Source: Lachnospiraceae bacterium (lineage in GTDB: Bacteria > Bacillota > Clostridia > Lachnospirales > Lachnospiraceae). From it: a stretch of 64,000 nucleotides of DNA. Below are positions 17,830-45,485 of this stretch, in pieces. The stretch is taken from contig JAQVHQ010000008.1 in NCBI GenBank assembly GCA_028696165.1, positions 1 through 64,000 on the forward strand, written 5' to 3'. The notes under the pieces are model-generated. The model searched no databases. It saw only the letters and a program-made list of their open reading frames with translations, and was not told the origin of the DNA. The first letter of the stretch is position 1. Every line of letters starts with the position of its first letter. The translations under genes and the position numbers were made by a program.

Positions 17830-18100
17830 GCACCCGTACGCCATGTGAGACTATGGAGGGCGTGAGAACCGTGGAAGGCTGTGAAAAAGGGATGCCACAC
17901 TAGAACGCAGGCAACGCTTCGTCAAACTATCTGCTAACAACGTCTAAGGCGCTCGGGAGAGTCCTCGCGCCTAAGTCATTGTAAGCAGAGGATTTTGACT
18001 ACGCTAAGTGCGCTTGCTGAATTGTTCTAGCATGGCATCCCTTTTTCACAGCCTTCCACGGTTCTCACACCCTCCATAGTCTCACATGGCGTACGGGTGC
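17830..18100. repeat. Long hairpin element with structured core (copy 1)
   Basis: Two 77-nt arms (17830-17906 and 18024-18100) are inverted repeats that agree at 74 of 77 positions. They enclose a 117-nt core (17907-18023). The core aligns along its length with the core of the element at 37200-37383. Paired positions have changed together: for example, the closing helix is GCAGGC/GCTTGC here and GTGGGT/ACCCAC there, and an inner helix is CTGCT/AGCAG here and CTGTT/AACAG there. The arms of the two copies are unrelated. It looks like a structured RNA or a folded-DNA element and does not code. Confidence 0.8.
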
Positions 18101-25403: not shown

Positions 25404-25889
25404 ATGGGAGATGAATTAAAGAAGCTGACTCATTTTGATGGGGCAGGTAATGCGATTATGGTTGATGTGGGGGATAAGAAGGTTACACGCAGGGAGGCTG
25501 TAGCTACTGGAAATATCCGGGTGAGCAAAGAGGTGTTGGAGGCTGTGGTGAATGGAACTTCTAAGAAGGGGGATGTTCTTGGAGTTGCCAGAGTTGCGGG
25601 GATTATGGCGGTGAAGCAGACTTCGAATCTGATTCCTATGTGTCATACGCTTTTGATTGAGAAGTGCAGTGTGGATTTTGAAATTGAGGAAGAGAGACTT
25701 GAGATTTGCGTGTTTTGCAGAGTGATGATTGACGGGAAGACTGGGGTGGAGATGGAAGCTCTGACTGGGGTTAGTGTTGCTTTGCTGACGATTTATGATA
25801 TGTGTAAGGCGATTGATAAGAGGATGGAAATTGGCGGGGTGCACCTTGTGGAGAAACACGGGGGGAAGAGTGGGGATTTTGTTTATTAG
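25404..25889 (+). CDS. moaC: Cyclic pyranopterin monophosphate synthase
   Basis: A 161-residue MoaC of normal length. The signature LIPMCHTL (near residue 75) and [23 protein letters not shown] (about residues 110-132) hold the active-site residues. It converts the 3',8-cyclo-GTP intermediate to cPMP in molybdenum-cofactor synthesis. No moaA is nearby. Codon choice is unusually G-rich (many GGG, GTG, TTG) compared with xdhC upstream, as the gene lies in the G+T-rich zone that surrounds the large hairpin 12 nt downstream. Confidence 0.95.
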
Positions 25890-25901
25890 GATGGTGGGAC
25901 G

Positions 25902-26210
25902 GCACAAAAAGCAATCGCCATCCCACACCAGCTCGGCCCTGTGCAGACACCAGCGCACAAAAGAAAGCTTCGGGCACTAAGTTCTACTAGAATAAATAGC
26001 AGCCAGGAATGTTGAACCAACCACATTCGATGTATTTTCTGATGAAAATCCATCTCAAGTGGTTTTGAAATTGGGTTTTGTGAACCCAATTTCATCAACT
26101 TTCCTGGCTGCTATTTATTCAAGTAGAACTAAGTGCCCTGCGTAATTTCTTTTGTGCGCTGGTGTCTGCACAGGGCCGGGCTGGTGTGGGATGGCGATTG
26201 CTTTTTGCGC
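25902..26210. repeat. Giant hairpin element with two-hairpin core (cloverleaf-like)
   Basis: Arms of about 108 and 110 nt (25902-26009 and 26101-26210) are inverted repeats with roughly ten differences, clustered in the middle. The 91-nt core folds into two more hairpins. One is CCAC-GATG-ATTTTC closed by GAAAAT-CATC-GTGG; the other is GAAATTGGGTT/AACCCAATTTC. The core is unrelated to the cores at 17.9 and 37.2 kb. No open frame uses it. It begins 12 nt after moaC, so it could end that operon, but its size far exceeds a terminator. Confidence 0.8.
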
Positions 26211-26215
26211 CTGGG

Positions 26216-26446
26216 TGTTGGAGACGGGAGGCGATGAGGAAGGGCTGGATTTGTGGGTGGTGGTCAGGCCGCCCTCATGGAGGCGCTGCGCTGTCCATGA
26301 GGGCTACGGTGAGTGGGGCGGGTGGCTACGGTGAGTGGGGCGGGTGGTTGCGGTGGGTGGTTGCGGTGGGTGGTTGCGGTGGGTGGTTGTGGTGAGTGGG
26401 GTGAGTGGGTGTTGTGGCGTAATGGGGGATATGTATGATATAAAGG
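26216..26446. repeat. GT-rich degenerate short-repeat tract
   Basis: Between the hairpin and the mutarotase gene, units such as GTGAGTGGGGCGGGTGG and TTGCGGTGGGTGG repeat in tandem with small changes. No gene is supported here. Confidence 0.7.
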
Positions 26447-37199: not shown

Positions 37200-37383
37200 G
37201 CGGCTGCGCAAAAGGAGATATGATACAGGAACGTGGGTAACGCTTTGGTGAACTATCTGTTAACTGCGACTAAGATGCTCGGGGTGTGACCCTCGCACCT
37301 AAGTCTTAGTAAACAGAGGATTTCACCAAAGCTAAGGACACCCACTGATTGTTCCTGTATCAGATCTCCTTTTGCGCAGCCGC
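37200..37383. repeat. Long hairpin element with structured core (copy 2)
   Basis: Arms of 33 nt (37200-37232 and 37351-37383) pair with one mismatch. The 118-nt core (37233-37350) aligns with that of copy 1 at 17907-18023. Helices are preserved by paired changes, including GTGGGT/ACCCAC, GCTTTGGTGAA/TTCACCAAAGC and CTGTT/AACAG. Loops such as AACTATCTG, CTAAG, CTCGG, CCTAAGTC and CAGAGGATTT are almost unchanged. The element lies in the same position as copy 1, just after the last gene of an operon. Confidence 0.8.
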
Positions 37384-44001: not shown

Positions 44002-45183
44002 ATGTATTGTGGAAATTGTGGAAATCAAATACCGGATGATGCTAAATTTTGTCCCAAATGCGGGACGTTAACACAAGAAAAAGCATCATATGTACAGCCG
44101 GAGGAAAAGTATTCTAAGATAGAAAATTCTAAGAAACATAAGGCAGAAGGCAGAAATACAGATAAAACGAAAACAGATATTATGCCCATTCTGATTGTGG
44201 GCGTGGGTGCATTGATTGTCGTGCTTGGTGTTATTTGCTTTATCCTGTTTACAAATGGAAAGAAGGATAAAGAAGATACGAAGCAGGCAGCACAAGCCCA
44301 GGAACAACAGACTGAGGAAGCAGAAGAGGCAAAACCGGAAGAAACAAAACCGGAGGAAGAACCTGAAGAAGTGCAGGAGGAAGCGCAACCTGCAGCAGAT
44401 GAGGCACCAGAATCACAGGAATCTGTCACGGGGCAGGAGGAACCTAAGGAATATATATTAGTAAATAGTTCCACAAGTCTGCTTACCCAGGCAGATATGG
44501 ATGGACTCAGCGCAGAAGAACTTCGTCTGGCGATTAATGAGATATATGCCCGACATGGAAGAAAGTTTAAAGATCAGGAACTGCAAAATTATTTTAATGC
44601 AAGAGGCTGGTATCATGGAACCATAGAACCGGATGCATTTGACGAAAGCTTGTTGTCTGACATAGAAAAGCAAAATGTACAGCTGCTAAGTGCCAGAAAA
44701 GATGCAGCAGGAACAGCATCTGCATCCAGTAATACAGGTGGTGTCAATTACGTAAGTGCCTATGCCGGACTGGTTGCCAGGGCAGCATCCGTGCCCAATA
44801 ATATCTCCTGGTATTGGTTGTGGGATATGGACGAAGATGGCATTCTGGAACTTATCATCAATGAAAAAACATGCGAGGCAGATGCCATCATACGTATCTA
44901 TACATATGATGGAAGTAATGCAATACAGTTGGGTGAACAGCCAGGTGGACATGGATGGGCGTGCTATATAGATGGCACGACAGGATTAGTCTTAGAATAT
45001 GCGCATATGGGATATGAGTGGGTAAATCTGATTAATAAAAATGGTAATTCGATTACAGTAACTAAACTTCTCGACCACGAAGTAGGTGTAGGAGATGAAA
45101 TTGGAACAACACTTCCAAGAAATGAATTGTACGGGTGTGATGTAAATAGTCAGGCTTTGCTGGCTGGCGGGGTGCCTTACTAA
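44002..45183 (+). CDS. Zinc-ribbon membrane protein with YARHG domain (copy A)
   Basis: A 393-residue protein. The N-terminal zinc ribbon CGNCGNQIPDDAKFCPKCG is followed by one membrane helix (about residues 54-78), a Glu/Pro/Ala-rich linker (85-150) and an extracytoplasmic YARHG domain (LRLAINEIYARHGRKFKDQE, near 175-195). The C-terminal ~140 residues form another domain with an Asp-rich DMDEDGILELII stretch resembling a calcium loop. Function unknown. GAGGAGGAG precedes the start. A paralogue with the same front lies at 60275, across the catabolic island. Confidence 0.85.
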   Translation: MYCGNCGNQIPDDAKFCPKCGTLTQEKASYVQPEEKYSKIENSKKHKAEGRNTDKTKTDIMPILIVGVGALIVVLGVICFILFTNGKKDKEDTKQAAQAQEQQTEEAEEAKPEETKPEEEPEEVQEEAQPAADEAPESQESVTGQEEPKEYILVNSSTSLLTQADMDGLSAEELRLAINEIYARHGRKFKDQELQNYFNARGWYHGTIEPDAFDESLLSDIEKQNVQLLSARKDAAGTASASSNTGGVNYVSAYAGLVARAASVPNNISWYWLWDMDEDGILELIINEKTCEADAIIRIYTYDGSNAIQLGEQPGGHGWACYIDGTTGLVLEYAHMGYEWVNLINKNGNSITVTKLLDHEVGVGDEIGTTLPRNELYGCDVNSQALLAGGVPY

Positions 45184-45201
45184 AAATCAATATAGGATGT
45201 T

Positions 45202-45240
45202 CAAGAATAGAGCTGTCGCACTGCGGCAGCTCTATTCTTG
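45202..45240. terminator. Strong perfect hairpin after copy A
   Basis: CAAGAATAGAGCTG pairs with CAGCTCTATTCTTG around CGC/GCG. It has no long T-run, but its place after the stop fits a terminator. Confidence 0.65.
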
Positions 45241-45485
45241 AATATTCTTGTTCATAGTTGTCCATTTTGTATTTTACTGTTTACATTTAAATTCTTATAA
45301 ATGGAATCTGTAGAACGGTTCATTAAAATCACACGGGGCATATAGAACCGCACTTTTAGTTAATGCCCCATTATGCTATATTTTCCTGACTAAATCAAGC
45401 AAATGGGGCATATACAAGCCAACTTTTTCCTGATGCCTCGATATTGATCTTAAAACGAGGCAGAGGAGCTTGAAGGGCTGTATAT
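45241..45485. other. Non-coding stretch with duplicated GGGGCATATA motif
   Basis: Two degenerate copies of a ~40-nt unit occur at about 45333-45372 and 45399-45440. Each begins GGGGCATATA and ends ATGCCCC or ATGCCTC, so each can fold on itself. No gene is seen. This may be a remnant of the front of the nuclease gene's original flank or a small repeat. Confidence 0.45.

Follow-up and report, generated by a model that had tools for sequence, protein, structure and literature searches.

Giant hairpin repeats with copy-specific arms behind genes of a Lachnospiraceae genome

Known palindromic repeats

REP, REPIN and BIME sequences, described together with RAYT transposases (PMC3116915, PMC3733652, PMC6006769), are extragenic palindromes that are dispersed in many copies downstream of genes. 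Their stems are imperfect and carry conserved mismatches, and a short motif is conserved where the hairpin has its 5' foot. The element located behind moaC in a Lachnospiraceae bacterium (contig JAQVHQ010000008.1; the window referred to below is the whole stretch of 64,000 nt that was analysed) resembles them in all of these respects. It belongs to a family, here termed A, that is represented by 57 copies in the genome alongside at least 12 copies of a second family, B, most of them directly behind genes. Unlike REPs, which measure 20-65 nt, these hairpins are roughly ten times as long (180-456 nt in most cases), their foot is GGAC (46 of 53 family A and 12 of 12 family B copies) rather than GTAG/GTGG or CGTC, their arms are private to each copy and enclose a large conserved two-hairpin core, and they are not linked to a RAYT gene, the genome's own RAYT being flanked by another palindrome. 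Whereas CGTC-tagged REPs bear the CGTC tag at one end and an unpaired CCA-type tail at the other, the reverse strand of the giant hairpins has CCA at the 5' and GTCC at the 3' side, apparently the opposite order. No earlier description of the element was found in open-access papers, and the giant hairpins fall among the extragenic palindromic repeats as an undescribed repeat.

The terminal inverted repeats of TIRtrons and TIRYTs carry a GGGGWSAS motif (PMC3733652), and the giant hairpins likewise have a G-rich foot motif adjoining the palindrome, but no transposase is encoded between or near them and both core and arms are unrelated. With bacterial MITEs and small intergenic repeats such as BOX and RUP of the pneumococcus (PMC3049150) they share a short, non-coding, dispersed fold-back form, but the terminal inverted repeats of MITEs are common to the copies whereas the arms of the giant hairpins match only within a copy. 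Homogenised arms and an inverted spacer, finally, are features of quasipalindromes that are corrected by template switching (PMC8604942, PMC8794818, PMC7202029). The known cases found are short hairpins or single loci, whereas here the process would act on dozens of arms longer than 75 nt within one repeat family.

The element behind moaC

An earlier note, made from the letters of the window alone, had described a near-palindrome of about 310 nt after moaC. This structure is real: the DNA folds back over 311 nt (window positions 25901-26211, forward strand), and its minimum free energy of -239 kcal/mol lies far below the -103.7 ± 5.1 kcal/mol of 100 dinucleotide shuffles (z -26.7). The 5' arm (25901-26010) and the 3' arm complementary to it (26101-26211) are 110 and 111 nt long, close to the 108-110 nt first proposed, and pair almost fully with 94% Watson-Crick pairs. 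The moaC gene (25404-25889, forward strand; TIGR00581, E 1.5e-57) ends in a stop codon 11 nt 5' of the first arm. The conserved foot motif GGAC (25897-25900) stands between the two and outside the hairpin, as does the conserved 3' tail TGGGTGTTGG (26212-26221) on the other side. The outer part of the 5' arm (approximately 25901-25950) is specific to this copy and the inner part (approximately 25951-26010) contains conserved internal loops. Mismatches clustered in the arms had been taken for partial decay, a reading that is not supported, since in the inner arms they are mostly conserved features present in most copies, namely an A.A mismatch in CTAAG/CTAAG, a fixed T.G and asymmetric loops.

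The 90-nt core (26011-26100) is recognised by a covariance model of family A, R1, with 98.5 bits and forms two stems, as had been noted. Hairpin I (26019-26064) is closed by AACCAC...GTGGTT, harbours the conserved ATTC / TCA internal loop and terminates in the apical TTTTC-TGAT-GAAAA. Hairpin II (26066-26094) is a perfect stem, TGAAATTGGGTT / AACCCAATTTCA, in which 26066-26077 pair with 26083-26094, giving 12 bp where 11 bp had been counted before. A hammerhead-like CUGAUGA in the core was considered and rejected by inspection, the motif being just the apical loop of a stem.

A dispersed core and a second family

When the own genome was searched at the DNA level, the core recurred at ten other places with 75-93% identity whereas the outer arms did not, and each of these cores caps a giant hairpin of its own. 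The R1 model, trained on eleven of the 57 own-genome copies, detects at least 57 full-length cores in the genome of 3.77 Mb. All 57 are situated within inverted arms, mostly of 75-180 nt, and span 215-456 nt in total by arm alignment, with copies E33 and E51 being irregular. The moaC hairpin is one copy of a dispersed repeat and not a lone palindrome. The search of related genomes that the earlier note had called for yielded R1 copies, two to ten per genome, in seven of the 149 other genera by which the family was sampled. The own genome alone was matched in a class-wide sample of 391 genomes under strict filters by which weak matches are lost. An exact core pattern, which fits one subgroup only, had no match in viral contigs or in a set of genome contigs that leaves out records near the own genome.

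In 81 cores from eight genera, ATTC, TGATG and TCA stand out as strongly conserved motifs, and each of the 34 core base pairs varies on both sides, 90.1% of cells being paired compared with 35-45% in slid controls. Divergence per site is lowest in the core loops (0.156), followed by the core stems (0.292) and the inner-arm stems (0.439). That the core loops diverge least argues that something still constrains the copies.

The window contains two further elements, of 271 nt (17830-18100, forward strand) and 184 nt (37200-37383, forward strand, 33 nt behind a stop codon), which carry another core and belong to family B. Family B is found in nine other genera, and these do not overlap with the other carriers of family A. 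The cores of A and B show no likeness apart from the motif CTAAG. In both families GGAC directly adjoins the 5' arm on its outer side, the arm opens with G and closes with C, and TG(G) follows outside the 3' arm. The feet of family B in an independent carrier assembled in five contigs, G101, are the same. The earlier note had seen in the moaC element the layout of the 17.8 and 37.2 kb elements without their core sequence, and had suggested that it may be a separate family of similar kind. As layout, termini and a site behind a stop codon are common to all three and the cores of A and B are unrelated, that reading was right. A TTGGCTA-like sequence often flanks family B copies on both sides (G101 L193-L212) and could belong to the element or form an outer stem.

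Arms matched within each copy

The outer arms have a median identity of 94.5% within a copy, compared with 48.6% between copies and 46.3% for shuffled sequence, and the similarity between copies is limited to the outermost 6 nt or so. Even where two copies have cores that are 95-99% identical, the identity is only 63-87% in their inner arms and 57-79% in their outer arms. In 14 pairs of related copies, which are not independent of each other, 154 sites have changed in both arms and 33 in one arm. The G+C content of the outer arms is 56.8% as against 41.3% in sampled parts of the genome. The idea that arms are captured gene or phage fragments was rejected for want of matches: a 126-nt outer arm is matched nowhere else in the genome, one long arm has no match among phages and the whole element none among plasmids or phages.

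A stem selected as RNA should tolerate G-U and purge A-C. The conserved stems of the own genome contain 75 G-U (55 + 20) and 76 A-C (58 + 18), a count that leaves out the fixed A.A and T.G mismatches. The arms contain 128 and 108, respectively (P 0.22), with 44 and 29 in the own-genome outer arms alone and 6 and 10 in G101 alone. Since G-U and A-C are about equally frequent, the stems reveal no bias towards an RNA strand, and it is concluded that the arms are kept matched at the DNA level. Strong covariation can arise at the DNA level without visible selection at the RNA level, which matters for the discovery of structured RNAs by covariation.

Template switching between inverted repeats leads to the overwriting of arms and the inversion of the spacer (PMC8604942; see also PMC8794818). 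Copy E19 (C67:13078-13167; L090 / L031) would be a natural product of such a switch: its core runs in the opposite direction to the GGAC/TGG feet and the host gene, the 5' arm complements the 3' arm exactly (100%) and the conserved loops have been erased. The concordant changes in related pairs and copy E19 are both as found in quasipalindromes corrected by template switching, and template switching during replication is most likely the agent that renews the match, although gene conversion by homologous recombination could act in its place. Because one genome offers arm homogenisation in many natural replicates, the tempo and signature of template switching become measurable.

Instability and cleavage by SbcCD are the expected fate of long palindromes. 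The genome nevertheless keeps dozens of them, and since it encodes SbcD, the lack of this part of SbcCD was rejected as the cause of their tolerance.

Position behind genes and the proposed origin

The placement of the moaC element 'just after an operon', as it had been put, is true genome-wide. Of the family A copies 35 of 57 start within 30 nt behind a same-strand stop codon and 45 of 57 within 120 nt, whereas on the 3' side ORFs of the opposite strand end within 30 nt in none and within 120 nt in four of the 57. Family B in G101 behaves in the same manner, with 14 copies on the 5' side in sense orientation versus 2 within 60 nt of a stop. The host genes are functionally unrelated and among those named include moaC, a Na/Pi symporter, clpB, aspS, tpiA, galE, codY and secA. 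The presence of CodY in itself suggests a member of the Bacillota. Pairs of elements that point towards each other, a few hundred bases apart at most, occur on C66 (L105), C8 (L083), C12 (L133/L135) and in G101 (L210). In the places examined they lie behind convergent genes, with one element per gene.

It is proposed that the moaC element probably belongs to a dispersed and non-coding type of giant palindrome whose arms are homogenised at the DNA level and which has spread non-autonomously. Fixed termini, the GGAC 5' foot and the 3' foot TGGGTGTTGG, would delimit a structure in which long inverted arms enclose the conserved core. Dispersal behind unrelated genes and the shared termini point to non-autonomous spread, with the copies entering transcription units at their 3' ends and in the sense direction. 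The conserved loops and mismatches of core and inner arms suggest that something recognises the hairpin, which might be a transposase or a factor that binds 3' ends. Counting against a mobile element, no enzyme was found that would mobilise it, and no pair of copies is close to identical from end to end, so there is no sign of recent movement. The strict sense orientation behind stop codons also goes beyond the needs of a passive repeat and could reflect selection for a function at 3' ends.

This orientation raises the question of what role so large an element has at transcript ends. A cis-acting structure of the mRNA 3' end, be it a terminator, a stabiliser or an RNase III site, could have been selected at each gene, a somewhat unlikely account that nevertheless draws on the placement of both families described above and on convergent gene pairs that bear one element each (C8, C66, G101 L210). 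The low divergence of the core loops points the same way, as may a relative scarcity of ordinary terminators downstream of the elements (4 of 57 compared with 41 of 247 control ORF ends; Fisher P 0.095). An intrinsic terminator, however, has a U-tract directly after the stem, and family A lacks one: the first 10 nt after the stem contain at least four T in 31 of 57 copies and six T in only one, with family B being somewhat T-richer. Nor are G-U pairs favoured over A-C, the host genes have no function in common and the element is absent from most genera of the family.

Extending the proposal of a homogenised dispersed repeat, one might tentatively see in these hairpins a class of giant palindromic elements at 3' ends that has so far gone undescribed in Bacillota, though the odds are somewhat against so broad a claim. 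An unknown machinery would read only termini and core while strand switching rewrites the arms, leaving at each locus a private inverted repeat, close to perfect and about 100 bp long, that is tolerated by an SbcD-positive cell and perhaps used to end or protect transcripts.

Y1 transposases as possible mobilisers

If the element were moved as single-stranded DNA by a Y1 transposase of the RAYT/TIRYT type with GGAC as its guide, it would be a non-autonomous and giant relative of REPs. This route is rather unlikely and the link to a RAYT-like transposase is suggestive only. The hairpins that flank RAYT-like genes of relatives in the family mostly start with GGGGACG (L144-L146, L148, L150, L154, L164), which is near the foot GGGG(GG)AC and the G that opens the arm. 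REPs too are mainly found downstream of genes (PMC3733652), and the parity of G-U and A-C fits DNA. Six of eight family A carriers possess a RAYT homologue, compared with 36 of the 150 genomes (P 0.0026 in a hypergeometric test that is uncorrected and concerns carriers that are phylogenetically related), but the association is absent in family B (4 of 10, P 0.19), five carriers of which have no match to any Y1 transposase. Moreover, no core lies at or near any RAYT gene, and the only RAYT-like Y1 gene of the genome (C96:52515-53270; 252 aa) has a different flanking palindrome (CGGGGGCAGGCG...). These three points, the different palindrome, the missing core and the Y1-free carriers, weaken RAYT as an evident mobiliser. 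The C96 gene (L071, L141), which is RAYT/TIRYT-like, is flanked by inverted copies of the palindrome CGGGGGCAGGCGAAAAC...GCCTGC, and the same palindrome is contained in the tail of copy E50.

Small RNA or artefact as improbable readings

The covariation of all 34 core pairs and the conserved loops might also be expected of a structured small RNA acting in trans. Homogenisation by itself, however, gives rise to covariation in stems, G-U and A-C are at parity, and a small RNA would have to exist in 57 or more copies that diverge and have arms of their own. No Rfam family was matched above the gathering threshold by the window, the element or 20 loci, and this explanation is very improbable. Nothing but the oddity of the structure speaks for a chance palindrome or an assembly inversion artefact, the latter named beforehand as what would refute the element, and either has a negligible probability given the z of -26.7, 57 related cores on different arms and family B copies in the five-contig genome G101.

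Other repeats near the elements

A short second hairpin repeat, GGCAGTGARGGCGCGTGCC...GGCACGGGGCTTG...GGTTAGGGGCTGAGTTTGTGGGT, is often located downstream of giant hairpins and frequently in tandem (L085, L082, L091, L096), and a possible variant of it is present at 26263-26310 of the window. On the 3' side of the moaC element, positions 26302-26417 contain G-rich and C-poor tandem repeats whose units are 13 and 22 nt long, GGGTGGTTGCGGT being an example. A separate hairpin with 27-bp arms and a 1-nt loop (45194-45248) lies just 3' of the stop codon at 45183 and shares the sequence GCTGTYGCACT with the region behind the stop codon of the next gene (45947).
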